This document shows positions 18,440 through 28,996 of a stretch of 64,000 bases of DNA, piece by piece. Within the stretch, counting starts at the first letter, position 1. Each line of letters opens with the position of its first letter. Source of the DNA: Clostridiales bacterium (GTDB taxonomy: Bacteria > Bacillota > Clostridia > Saccharofermentanales > Saccharofermentanaceae). The stretch covers positions 1 to 64,000 of the forward strand of contig JAFWDK010000010.1 in the NCBI GenBank assembly GCA_017513085.1, read 5' to 3'. The position numbers and the translations under genes are program-made. The notes below the pieces were generated by a model that saw nothing but the letters and a program-made list of their open reading frames with translations, was not told where the DNA came from and did not search any database.

Positions 18440-18508
18440 TTATAAGCAAAACTTATCACAAACGATAAAAAGTAACGATTTTTCAAACGTGGAACGTCAT
18501 GGTACTAT
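18440..18508 (+). promoter_or_regulatory. Sulfur-regulon LysR operator and promoter of the cysK/nitrogenase-like operon
   Basis: The repeat TTATAAG-N5-CTTATCA (18440-18458) lies 63 nt upstream of TACTAT (18503-18508). Positions 20-46 of this block (ACAAACGATAAAA...ATTTTTCAA) match the copy at 13113 almost base for base. Transcription is expected near 18515, so the transcript begins with the Cys/Met-rich leader peptide and attenuator before cysK. Confidence 0.77.
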
Positions 18509-18561
18509 TAACTCATCCCGAACAGGGAAAGCAAAAACTCATCAAAAGGGAGGTAATGAAC

Positions 18562-18648
18562 ATGAAGAATATGATGGATCGAAACAATATGCAGATGTGT
18601 TGCATGTGTTGTATGTGTTCGACATGTTTAACTACAGAATCGAAATAA
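18562..18648 (+). CDS. 28-residue Cys/Met-rich leader peptide of the cysK attenuator
   Basis: An ATG at 18562 with GGGAGG 8 nt upstream opens 28 codons ending with TAA at 18646. The product contains 6 Cys and 7 Met; its core, residues 10-22, reads MQMCCMCCMCSTC. Two tandem Cys codon pairs lie at 18598-18603 and 18607-18612. The stop codon is 2 nt before the left arm of an antiterminator hairpin. Clustering of sulfur amino acid codons directly before cysK is what a translation-dependent attenuator needs: ribosomes short of Cys- or Met-tRNA would stall in the leader. An alternative, that the peptide itself binds metal, is possible but less likely given the RNA structure that follows. Confidence 0.82.
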   Translation: MKNMMDRNNMQMCCMCCMCSTCLTTESK

Positions 18649-18650
18649 AA

Positions 18651-18693
18651 CTTTTGGTGAAAACAACATTTTGAAAGTAGTTGTTACCAAAAG
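18651..18693 (+). promoter_or_regulatory. Antiterminator hairpin of the cysK attenuator
   Basis: CTTTTGGT (18651-18658) pairs with ACCAAAAG (18686-18693) and AACAAC (18662-18667) pairs with GTTGTT (18680-18685). This makes a 14-bp stem with a 3-nt bulge and a 12-nt loop. The right arm overlaps the left arm of the following terminator (18678-18688), so the two structures exclude each other. A ribosome that reaches the leader stop codon at 18648 would cover the left arm and favour the terminator. One that stalls in the Cys codons would leave it free. Confidence 0.78.
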
Positions 18694-18712
18694 GGTAGCA
18701 GCTAATTTTTTT
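18678..18712 (+). terminator. Attenuator terminator upstream of cysK
   Basis: TAGTTGTTACC (18678-18688) pairs with GGTAGCAGCTA (18694-18704) over 11 bp, including two G-U pairs, around an AAAAG loop. It is followed by AT7 (18705-18712). It is a proper intrinsic terminator located 19 nt before the cysK ATG and inside the leader RNA, so it can only serve to stop transcription conditionally before cysK and the nitrogenase-like genes. Confidence 0.82.
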
Positions 18713-18730
18713 GTCAAGGAGGACATAACA

Positions 18731-26154: not shown

Positions 26155-26181
26155 AGCAGCAAGCAGAAAGGAGTTTTATAC

Positions 26182-27636
26182 ATGGCGAACGTGACGTATT
26201 CCGGTGTCAGAGAAAGCAAGCCTGGACGTCTTAACGACTTGGGTTCGACCGGACAAGAGGTCAGTGAAAACTTTAAAAAGGGATGCCTGAAGAGAGCGGA
26301 CAGAAGTTTTGCACAAGGACTTCAGTGCCAGCAGATCAACAGCCTGGCGGCTCTGATGTCACTGGAAGATGCAGTCTTCATTTCCCATTCACCACAAGGC
26401 TGTGTGGGATGTGCGATCATGGCGATCGATATGTATCGTGTCGGTCAGATCCATCGAGGCATCCGTAACGTGAAGAATCCGCGTCTGATCGTGTCCAATA
26501 TCGATCAGAAAAGCGTAGTATTCGGAGGCGAGAAGAAACTTCGTGAAGCCGTGAAAAAAGCAGTCGAGAGATACTCTCCGAAACTGATTTTTGTCTTTGC
26601 CTCCTGCGCATCCGGTATTATCGGTGATGATATCGATGCGATCTGCTCGGATCTTCAGACAGAATACCCGGACCCATTGATCATTCCGATCCATTGCGAA
26701 GGATTTAAATCGAAGATCTGCGCATCCGGATTTGATGCGGCATTTATTTCGATCAACAAGTATATCCTGAAGCATAAGAAGATCGAGAAGGAAGCTGGAT
26801 TGATCAATCTTTTTGCACCGACAACAGTCAGCTATGCTGACCAGAAAGAGATGGAGAGAATGCTTCAGCTTCTCGGTGCCAAGGTAAACTATATCCCGTT
26901 TTACAGTTCTCTTGAAAAGATCAAGAGGATCCCTGCAGCAGAAGCTTCGACTTCGATATGCAAAGTATTCGCAGATGAGTTCATGAAGACTCTTTATGAA
27001 GATTACGATATTCCTTATTCACATACGGTCATGCCGATCGGTATCCGTAACACGGATAAGTGGTACAGAGGTATTGCTAAGGTCATTGGAAAAGAGAAGG
27101 AAGTGGAGGAGATCATCGCCAAAGAACATGAGAGGATCGAACCACTTGTTAAGAAGCTTCGTGACCGTCTTAACGGAAAGCGTGTATTCATCTGTGGCGG
27201 TACAGGACGTTCTTTTGCCGCAGCAGCCCTGATCGATGACTTCGGCATGAAACTTGTCGGACTGGAAACCCCTACTTACGATGACGATGCACAGGTCGAT
27301 ATCGAATATCTCAATGGGATCCATAAGGACTTCGTCGTGGATATTGCGAACATGCAACCGTTTGAACAAGTCAATCTGGTCAATAAACTGAAGCCGGATG
27401 CTTTCATCGGCGTACCGGAATGGGCGGCAAAGCTCGGTATACCTACGACACATGTTCTGGATGGTAAACGTCCTACCATGGGTTACGACGGTCTTTTGTT
27501 CCTGGGAAACAAGATTGCCGATCAGTTGGAGAACCCGGGATTTAATAAGAAACTGTCCGAGCACGTCAAACTTCCGTATAAGGAATCCTGGTATCAGGAA
27601 GATGCATTTAAGTATATTACGAAAGGAGAAAACTGA
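26182..27636 (+). CDS. nflD: Nitrogenase-like component 1 alpha subunit (NflD2)
   Basis: This second alpha subunit, 484 residues, has P-cluster-type cysteines C49, C74 (HSPQGC) and C142 (ASCASGIIGDD). Both NifD cofactor ligands have apparent equivalents: C260 in STSICKVF, ahead of LYEDYDIPY, matching Cys275, and H424 in PTTHVLDGKRPTMGYDG, matching His442 and the following GYDG. It is therefore the better candidate for the catalytic subunit. It shares the HCEGFKS motif and overall layout with NflD1 but is clearly diverged. It is followed immediately by nflK2, whose start is at 27638. Confidence 0.91.
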   Translation: MANVTYSGVRESKPGRLNDLGSTGQEVSENFKKGCLKRADRSFAQGLQCQQINSLAALMSLEDAVFISHSPQGCVGCAIMAIDMYRVGQIHRGIRNVKNPRLIVSNIDQKSVVFGGEKKLREAVKKAVERYSPKLIFVFASCASGIIGDDIDAICSDLQTEYPDPLIIPIHCEGFKSKICASGFDAAFISINKYILKHKKIEKEAGLINLFAPTTVSYADQKEMERMLQLLGAKVNYIPFYSSLEKIKRIPAAEASTSICKVFADEFMKTLYEDYDIPYSHTVMPIGIRNTDKWYRGIAKVIGKEKEVEEIIAKEHERIEPLVKKLRDRLNGKRVFICGGTGRSFAAAALIDDFGMKLVGLETPTYDDDAQVDIEYLNGIHKDFVVDIANMQPFEQVNLVNKLKPDAFIGVPEWAAKLGIPTTHVLDGKRPTMGYDGLLFLGNKIADQLENPGFNKKLSEHVKLPYKESWYQEDAFKYITKGEN

Positions 27637-27637
27637 C

Positions 27638-28927
27638 ATGTCTGAGATCATGGAAAATCCCAAGGGTGGATGTGTACTGGCCGGTATCAATTCGGTCCTT
27701 GGTGCCATTGAAAGAGTGTGCCCAATCTATCACAGCGGCCCCGGCTGCTGCATGCAGACATCTGCATCCGATCAAGGTCAGTCAGGACACAAATCATCCT
27801 GCTTTGTAAGCAGTGTGTCGATCCCTTCGAGTAATATGCTGGAGAAAGAAGTAGTCTTTGGAGGAACCAACAAGCTTCGTACGACGATCCAGGGTGCTAT
27901 CGATATTATCGATGCAGATGCATACTTTGTTCTGACAGGCTGTACGGCAGGTATTATCGGAGACGATATTGCCAGCATAACGAATGAATTTTCTGAAAAA
28001 GGTATCCCGGTCTATCCGATCGAAACACCTGGTTTTACCGGTGACAGCAATCTCGGATATGAGACGGTCTGGAATACATTCCTGGATAAGGTCATCGACA
28101 AAAATGTGCCGAAGGATGATAAACTCGTCAATATTTTCGGTATCATTCCGTATCATGACCCGTTCTGGAGCGGCACACTGGAAGAGATCGATCGTATCCT
28201 TTCCCGTCTGGGTCTTCGCGTCAATACGTTCTTTACTAAAGGACAGGGTATTGAAGATGTGAAGAAGAGTTCCGCTGCAGCGCTGAACATTATTGTTAAT
28301 CCGTGGCTTTTCAAAGGGCCTGCCGCAAAATACGAAAGCAAGTTCGGTGTACCGAGTCTTCGGATCCCAGGTTTGTTTGTCGGTGCGACAGATACGACCA
28401 GATTCGTCAGAAAGGTCGCAGAAACGCTGAATCTGGATAAAGATCTGGTGGAGTCGGTAATTGCTTCTGAAGAAAAATATGTATATCACTACCTTGAACA
28501 GTCTATTGGCGTATTGAGCTGGAAGCGCTTCGCTGTGGTGGCGGATGCGAATAATGCTATCGGATTTACCCGGTATCTTGCCAATGACTATAGTTTTACA
28601 CCGGTGCTGGTCATTGTGTCTGAACCGATCTTCCGTCCGGAAGATAAGGAGAGGATCATCAAGGAGATCACTGACCTTGAATATGCCCGCCCGCCGAAAG
28701 TTCTTTTCCTTACGGACCAGTATGAGATCAATAAAGCGATCCGTGAAGAAGAACAGGAGATCACGCTTCTTGTTGGTTCAAGTAACGACAGGGAGATCGC
28801 TCTGGAAAAAGATATCCAGTTCATCCTGGGAAGTTTCCCGATGAGCGAGCGTTTGATCTTCAACCGAACATATGCAGGTTATCGTGGCAGTCTGACGTTT
28901 ACGGAAGACATCTACGACAACAACTGA
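27638..28927 (+). CDS. nflK: Nitrogenase-like component 1 beta subunit (NflK2)
   Basis: This 429-residue partner of NflD2 has P-cluster-type cysteines C12, C37 (HSGPGC) and C102 (TGCTAGIIGDD). The start at 27638 is one nt after the nflD2 stop codon and has AAAGGAG 10 nt upstream. A longer in-frame extension runs back into nflD2 and is not used. Like NflK1 it lacks the NifK N-terminal extension. It closes the nitrogenase-like operon and is followed by a strong terminator at 28965. Confidence 0.91.
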   Translation: MSEIMENPKGGCVLAGINSVLGAIERVCPIYHSGPGCCMQTSASDQGQSGHKSSCFVSSVSIPSSNMLEKEVVFGGTNKLRTTIQGAIDIIDADAYFVLTGCTAGIIGDDIASITNEFSEKGIPVYPIETPGFTGDSNLGYETVWNTFLDKVIDKNVPKDDKLVNIFGIIPYHDPFWSGTLEEIDRILSRLGLRVNTFFTKGQGIEDVKKSSAAALNIIVNPWLFKGPAAKYESKFGVPSLRIPGLFVGATDTTRFVRKVAETLNLDKDLVESVIASEEKYVYHYLEQSIGVLSWKRFAVVADANNAIGFTRYLANDYSFTPVLVIVSEPIFRPEDKERIIKEITDLEYARPPKVLFLTDQYEINKAIREEEQEITLLVGSSNDREIALEKDIQFILGSFPMSERLIFNRTYAGYRGSLTFTEDIYDNN

Positions 28928-28964
28928 CGGAACGATCCATCCGTCGTTTAATCTCACTTTGGGG

Positions 28965-28996
28965 AAAGAGACTGCTGTTCTGCAGTCTCTTTCTCT
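28965..28996 (+). terminator. Intrinsic terminator of the cysK/nitrogenase-like operon
   Basis: A perfect 11-bp stem, AAAGAGACTGC (28965-28975) with GCAGTCTCTTT (28982-28992), encloses a TGTTCT loop and is followed by CTCT. It lies 38 nt after the nflK2 stop codon. Confidence 0.75.

Follow-up and report, generated by a model that had tools for sequence, protein, structure and literature searches.

A Mar-related, nitrogenase-like ten-gene cluster with predicted sulfur control in a Clostridiales genome

Gene content and component-1 proteins of the cluster

We analyzed a 64,000-nucleotide stretch of DNA from a Clostridiales bacterium (GenBank assembly GCA_017513085.1, contig JAFWDK010000010.1, positions 1 to 64,000; hereafter the window), part of a 3.06-Mb host genome, which carries a cluster of nitrogenase-like genes together with genes for cysteine synthases. 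Ten co-directional genes, cysK-nifB-nifX-nifH-cysK2-D1-K1-nifX2-D2-K2, run head to tail on the forward strand from 18731 to 28927, with D and K denoting the alpha and beta subunits of component 1. An initial annotation of the window had placed this set as one operon behind a sulfur-regulon operator and a Cys/Met leader attenuator; all ten genes were found on the one strand, and their order and spacing suggest a single transcript. The neighborhood survey proposed in that annotation found the same ten-gene order in 4/4 further D2-bearing genomes from a set of 118.

The first component-1 pair is formed by D1 (22840..24306, +) and K1 (24306..25604, +), and the second by D2 (26182..27636, +) and K2 (27638..28927, +). 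The best matches of all four subunits among solved structures are those of the methylthio-alkane reductase (Mar): D1 scores 300 bits against MarD versus 130 against NifD, K1 scores 397 bits against MarK versus 88 against NifK, and D2 and K2 score 236 and 243 bits against the Mar subunits, the latter against MarK. The kinship to Mar proposed initially is borne out by these scores and by trees of the D subunit, in which Mar, D1 and D2 are split from NifD, VnfD and NifE at 100/100, so that neither pair falls inside true Nif or NifEN, the placement raised in the annotation as contrary to its reading. D1 is sister to Mar (97/95), and so not inside the Mar clade, and D2 lies outside Mar plus D1 (95/94); the K tree gives the same groups, with Mar plus K1 at 92/75. 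Nostoc VnfE and VnfN, both on long branches, were placed on the Mar side in these first D and K trees. In a larger D tree with 36 added D rows, from which 7 of the 30 D rows used before, among them Nostoc VnfE, and two open reading frames (ORFs) of locus L208 were left out, D1 and Mar are still sisters and D2 still lies outside, with a large further clade beside them. The trees were built without AnfD, NfaDK and IsrDK.

The six P-cluster cysteines, three of them in the K subunit, and the cofactor cysteine are present in both D1K1 and D2K2. The predicted cofactor ligands of D1 are Cys257 and Arg413-His414, which match Cys270 and the loop-I Arg428-His429 of Mar; excerpts of PMC12552129 suggest that the Arg-His might be a Mar hallmark. 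All three D1 residues are kept in 121/121 aligned rows, comprising the window protein and the 120 closest of 1212 matches. D2 matches the Mar cysteine (Cys260) but not the Arg-His, its loop-I histidine being absent; its other predicted ligand is His424, which is found in 121/121 rows (the window protein and the 120 closest of 951 matches) and which two of three alignment methods (phmmer and hhalign) align with NifD His442. The equivalents of NifD Gln191/His195 are replaced by Trp/Phe in D1 and by Cys/Phe in D2, and MarD His194 is Ile in D1. The retained residues suggest that the clusters in D1K1 match those of Mar.

The Fe protein NifH (20900..21769, +) is Nif-type (464.5 bits against a cut-off of 394.35) and 80.7% identical to NifH of Clostridium pasteurianum, and the Cys/Arg/Cys residues claimed initially at the Azotobacter positions C97, R100 and C132 are present by alignment. 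It falls together with Nif NifH and the H proteins of part of the remaining Mar-clade loci; a different H (~44-50%) is present in other Mar-like loci. This NifH is Nif-like and not MarH-like. Since NifH is Nif-type while the D and K subunits are Mar-related, the system is a mosaic. Either GTG 20900 or ATG 20921 could serve as the NifH start, the latter being the probable one.

The remaining genes of the cluster encode cofactor-assembly and cysteine-forming proteins. NifB (19682..20554, +), the cluster maturase, is a short radical S-adenosylmethionine (SAM) form scoring 285 bits against the solved NifB 7bi7; it has the CxxxCxxC, HPCF, ERPG and AGPGD motifs and falls under the TIGR01290 cut-off because the C-terminal domain is absent. 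NifX1 (20547..20903, +) is a NifX/NifB-C-terminal-like cluster carrier (NifB C-terminal profile, 1.1e-16; nifX, 1.6e-12), and NifX2 (25690..26154, +), which also occurs in loci without D2K2, is NifX-like with a Gly/Cys-rich insert. CysK1 (18731..19666, +) is a cysteine synthase A (TIGR01139, 446.7 bits against a cut-off of 350.95) that probably starts at ATG 18731 and not, as listed among the ORFs, at a TTG, and CysK2 (21806..22822, +), a second CysK-family enzyme, retains the pyridoxal phosphate lysine motif NPAGSHKDR.

Predicted sulfur control and neighboring genes

The upstream region of the cluster was compared with those of its relatives, taken as the best 80 of 280 D1 loci, all from named genomes and all with at least 85% identity; 64 of the 80, each with at least 250 bases upstream, were used for upstream counts, and 58 and 59 of the 80 for neighbor counts. 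A Cys/Met-rich leader peptide ORF (18562..18648, +) reads MKNMMDRNNMQMCCMCCMCSTCLTTESK and is followed by a predicted attenuator terminator (18679..18712, +) with a 10-bp stem and a T-run, with which an antiterminator fold from ~18650 would compete. The leader start and its Cys block are kept within the genus, and different Cys-rich leaders are found at the same place in other loci. A Cys-rich leader with a ribosome-site-like stretch precedes the operon in 21/64 loci, compared with a mean of 0.85/64 (largest, 3) in 20 dinucleotide shuffles and with 6/320 random windows. The terminator pairing holds in 98.6% of cells across 7 relatives, and in 11-66% in slid controls.

Upstream of the leader is a predicted sulfur operator (18440..18468, +) with the footprint TTATAA-N7-TTATCAC-N3-CGATAA, whose core, ATAAG-N5-CTTAT at 18442-18456, lies inside the wider TTATAA-N7-TTATCAC. 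A looser form of the operator stands upstream of 26/64 operons, compared with a mean of 0.26 in mononucleotide shuffles, a test that is partly circular because the patterns were drawn from some of the same loci; the strict form with CGATAA is found in 13/64 upstream regions. The window holds 8 operator matches with at most one mismatch where 1.96 are expected, and three of the five perfect sites in the genome fall within it (P ~9e-5).

The genes upstream of the operon encode a cystathionine synthase/lyase-family enzyme (8760..9911, +; relatives in 31/59 D1 loci), a PatB-family C-S lyase (9925..11112, +; 30/59), a CysE-like serine acetyltransferase (11131..12081, +), a LysR-type regulator (12122..13024, +) and an SsuA/SsuC/SsuB-type importer (13177..16117, +), which is predicted to be the entry route of the substrate and has relatives in 23-30/59 loci, the count for the ATPase possibly including other ABC ATPases. 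A second LysR, MetE and MetF are encoded downstream. The region has the look of an island of sulfur and methionine genes, and the sulfur context claimed initially is evident in these neighbors, the leader and the operator, which together predict sulfur control. Between importer and operon (16171-18426) are genes for a DUF4418 protein, an FtsX-like permease and an ABC ATPase, whose relatives occur in 17/59, 24/59 and 33/59 loci, respectively, although the last count may take in other ABC ATPases. On the other side, a gene for a LanC-like protein (29527-30954) adjoins the operon; a perfect operator site lies at 29462, and relatives of the gene are found near the operon in 12/80 loci.

Distribution of the system

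The D1 loci are found mainly in records under the titles Lachnospiraceae, Clostridiales or Clostridia, many of which are of rumen or gut origin; seven are in metagenome-assembled genomes (MAGs) titled Bacteroidales, Paludibacteraceae, Spirochaetaceae or Treponema, where misbinning of contigs is possible, and a related locus is on a plasmid of Treponema saccharophilum JCM 32279. A CysK-like frame starts at most 1500 bases upstream of D1 in 57/59 loci with enough flank, so the embedded CysK2, which the initial annotation had counted among the differences from Mar, is not peculiar to this locus but belongs to a widespread CysK-D1-K1 unit. D2K2 follows D1 in 15 of the 58 loci with at least 6.5 kb downstream and is missing there from the other 43. 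Among ten named draft genomes picked for having D1, D1K1 is the sole component-1 pair in five, and D2K2 lies apart from the D1 operon in four (the form in Butyrivibrio LC3010 being distant, 70%/55%). The two component-1 pairs described initially are thus both present and differ from Mar, but they are not equivalent: D1K1 is the core unit, and D2K2 is an optional addition that belongs to a deeper clade and whose predicted cofactor histidine is another one. In [Clostridium] polysaccharolyticum, MarDK (57%/54% to R. rubrum) and a further pair exist beside D1K1, so D1K1 is distinct from Mar. E. uniforme has three additional weak component-1 matches that were left outside the classification. A D2 orthologue is found in 5/118 genomes, all five of which also carry D1K1, although the ten named genomes cannot test this co-occurrence because they were picked for D1. 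Some loci and genomes overlap (L069/G058 and L081/G027, for example, are each the same genome).

The large clade of D subunits beside Mar and D1 in the larger tree (L181-L208) has a loop-I 'GH' and not 'RH' and lies beside CysK and Ssu genes, often with several D genes per genome (four in one, six seen in another); we regard it as an uncharacterized sulfur-linked radiation within the phylum. D relatives farther removed were covered at 28 loci from across the phylum; 25 of these have CysK, cystathionine-enzyme or Ssu relatives, two of the 25 (L181 and L189) by weak matches, and several of the loci come from one genome. A divergent pair of D subunits (L191:12676 and L201:8395) has no loop-I histidine, and its loop-II IHSARG motif resembles IHSYDYSG of NifD 9p1x_A. 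In Butyrivibrio sp. LC3010, relatives of D2 and K2 occupy one 926-codon open frame, a possible D2-K2 fusion that is unsure because shorter loci show two frames.

NifB and the domains of sulfite reductase (PF01077) and phosphoadenosine phosphosulfate (PAPS) reductase (PF01507) were sought in 22 chosen genomes of the 118. The NifB SAM domain is present in 10/10 with D1 or D3 systems and in 0/12 without, and neither PF01077 nor PF01507 was found in any of the 22, the host included, which suggests that the useful product would be released sulfide or thiol and not sulfite. The initial annotation had reported no NifE/N in the window, and no NifDK or NifEN pair was seen in the host genome: the eight component-1 matches are the four genes described here and four in two small H-D-K cassettes (C5:245-248 kb and C23:92-96 kb), which lie beside iron/cobalamin-type ABC transporter genes. 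Four HMGL-like genes are present in the host genome, none of them in the window, and none could be singled out as NifV.

A predicted organosulfur reductase system and its alternatives

Among the closest known systems is MarBHDK of Rhodospirillum rubrum, which, as described in extracts of PMC12552129, shares with this locus a NifB-type maturase, H, D and K, the six P-cluster cysteines and, as predicted here, a role in sulfur metabolism. It differs in that D1K1 and D2K2 form separate clades, that NifH here is Nif-type, and that CysK, CysK2, the NifX proteins, a second D/K pair and the Cys-leader are found here. IsrBHDK of Rhodobacter capsulatus, said in part of PMC11423573 to be widespread, intestinal bacteria included, is likewise nitrogenase-like, functions in sulfur assimilation and has an Ssu-type importer; in the same extract, however, IsrD has one of the three P-cluster cysteines and no Cys275 equivalent, whereas D1 and D2 keep all four, and IsrB is not NifB-like. 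A sulfite-reductase domain was not found in the host genome. The Mo-nitrogenase (NifHDK/NifEN) has in common with this system NifH (81% to C. pasteurianum), NifB, NifX and the component-1 fold, but the D and K subunits here lie outside NifD, VnfD and NifE, no NifEN pair was seen, active-site residues are replaced and the context is one of sulfur. Plasmid pTS2 of T. saccharophilum (NZ_AP025290.1) carries metY, cysK, nifB, nifX, nifH, two component-1 pairs, annotated only as 'nitrogenase component 1', and an ABC importer; one D is 59% identical to D1, but the second pair is of the Mar clade and not the D2 clade, and the genes are in separate blocks. The group-IV nif homologues of Pillotina corrugata, in the portion of PMC13067680 cited, include nifD and nifK in an operon with cysteine synthase, for which a sulfur role was suggested, though nifB and nifH are scattered.

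We conclude that the cluster is most likely not a nitrogenase, and that it is probably a sulfur-starvation, Mar-related, nitrogenase-like organosulfur reductase system feeding CysK, a new relative of Mar with predicted sulfur control and with D1K1 in its own sister clade; our confidence in any particular substrate, or in a role for D2K2, is much lower. Judged from its sequence, the system could work as follows. When charged Cys-tRNA runs short, ribosomes would stall within the Cys-rich leader, which would favor the antiterminator, and a LysR-type protein may act at the operator. NifB would build the [Fe8S9C] cluster, which NifX1 and NifX2 may carry and deliver without NifEN, and NifH would pass electrons to D1K1 at the expense of ATP. 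D1K1 is then predicted to cleave the C-S bond of an organosulfur compound imported by the SsuABC-type importer. CysE would supply O-acetylserine, with which CysK1 and CysK2 could fix the freed sulfide or thiol as cysteine, and the cystathionine enzymes, PatB and MetE may lead from cysteine to methionine. At the weakest step of the model, D2K2, sharing NifB and NifH, might serve as a second reductase that acts on a different sulfur compound.

Several observations weigh against this model. A Nif-like NifH would serve a nitrogenase equally well. Cys-rich leaders are found in only 21 of the 64 loci, terminator covariation is no better than in column shuffles (288/500 reach the observed level), and the perfect operator pattern, with 5 sites against 9 for the reversed control, is not enriched across the genome. 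Of the 16 genomes from which the named D1 loci come, 3 contain PF01077 (those of L. multipara LB2003 and Lachnospiraceae bacterium 3-1, and one Bacteroidales MAG), so the argument for sulfide or thiol as the product is not valid for all. The 12 comparison genomes without the system also lack PF01077 and PF01507, which shows that these bacteria manage without the domains as well; their absence alone therefore does not call for the system. Because the importer is linked in only 23-30/59 D1 loci, it may not carry the substrate.

Among the other functions considered, two seem unlikely to about the same degree. D1K1 could simply be Mar, converting methylthio-alkanes to methanethiol, as its Arg-His, six P-cluster cysteines and best solved-structure match would allow; but D1 is in a separate sister clade, coexists with MarDK in [Clostridium] polysaccharolyticum and has Ile for MarD His194, and its partner is CysK and not a MetY-type enzyme as beside the Chlorohelix Mar-like set, a contrast softened by T. 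saccharophilum, which has both. Alternatively, D1K1 could reduce inorganic or sulfonate sulfur (sulfite, for example, or a sulfonate down to sulfide) and replace the missing sulfite reductase. The adjacency to CysK in 57/59 loci, the sulfonate-type importer and the lack of PF01077 in 22/22 and 13/16 genomes (one genome probably being in both sets) agree with this; against it, only part of the loci have the importer, PF01077 and the system are both absent from 12 of the 22 genomes, and no Mar-family member is known to reduce inorganic or sulfonate sulfur.

Somewhat less probable is a scaffold role for D2K2, which would resemble NifEN and complete the cluster destined for D1K1. The presence of D1K1 in all five D2-bearing genomes and the loss of the loop-I histidine, which fits a transient site, are in line with a scaffold, but D2K2 is missing from 43/58 D1 loci and would not be required in the five draft genomes where D1K1 stands alone, and Mar is not known to need NifEN. 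K2 also retains three P-cluster cysteines where NifN of R. phaseoli has lost two, a weak argument because Nostoc VnfN keeps all three in the same alignment. We consider it very unlikely that D1K1 or D2K2 reduces N2 as a group IV-A (Nfa) type nitrogenase, in the manner proposed for Endomicrobium proavitum, a species without NifEN. The Nif-type NifH, the position of D2 His424 opposite NifD His442 and the complete set of cofactor and P-cluster cysteines would suit such an enzyme, and human faeces take up 15N2 according to sections of PMC4995403, where E. proavitum is said to lack the histidine of the iron-molybdenum cofactor (FeMo-co) yet fix N2; an excerpt of PMC9147875 predicts that its NfaD holds all ligands. 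The Cys-leader, operator and cysK context speak against N2 reduction, as do the absence of Gln191/His195 equivalents from D1 and D2 and the five genomes with D1K1 as sole pair.

Implications for gut and rumen nifH genes

Returning to the organosulfur reductase model, it bears on nifH genes attributed to nitrogen fixers of the gut. In sections of PMC4995403, Igai et al. (2016) report Cluster III nifH in 10.7-31.7% of individuals in four populations and name Clostridiales as candidate gut nitrogen fixers from it; operational taxonomic unit OTU-08 is 98% identical to NifH of Lachnospira multipara, and OTU-34 more than 97% to that of Lachnospiraceae bacterium 3-1 (strain 3-1) and others, including Prevotella bryantii. 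A later rumen paper repeats the nitrogen-fixation inference for L. multipara (PMC8571420, in part). The window NifH shares 97.9% identity with its counterpart in L. multipara ATCC 19207 and 91.5% with the one in strain 3-1. In two draft genomes of L. multipara and in strain 3-1, D1K1 are the only component-1 genes, and a single NifH exceeds the TIGR01287 cut-off, the one in the D1K1 cluster. The FeMo-co histidine is absent in some members of the clade of Igai et al. and kept in others (PMC4995403, in extract), which may reflect the existence of both D1-only and D2-bearing genomes. Uptake of 15N2 by faeces is not contradicted by a sulfur function, and Klebsiella nifH was also found in faecal samples (same extract). 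Since this NifH has D and K neighbors, it could pass a filter that asks only for nearby nifDK-like genes, as in the part of PMC8597730 cited.

We tentatively propose a fuller reading, possible but short of probable, in which one operon encodes two nitrogenase-family sulfur reductases: D1K1, a gut-specialized sister of Mar that would hand its freed sulfur directly to CysK, and D2K2, which would represent a new class in which a loop-II histidine of nitrogenase type binds [Fe8S9C] within a scaffold from the Mar side. The 'Cluster III nifH' of human-gut and rumen Lachnospiraceae would then mark a sulfur system and not nitrogen fixation. If this is true, a group of 'nitrogen-fixation' genes from gut and rumen would become sulfur-scavenging genes. 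A single operon that combines two component-1 clades, whose cofactor histidines are at different positions, with a shared NifH and NifB would also offer a natural test of the ligand shift between Mar and nitrogenase, a move left open in the text of PMC12552129 cited here.

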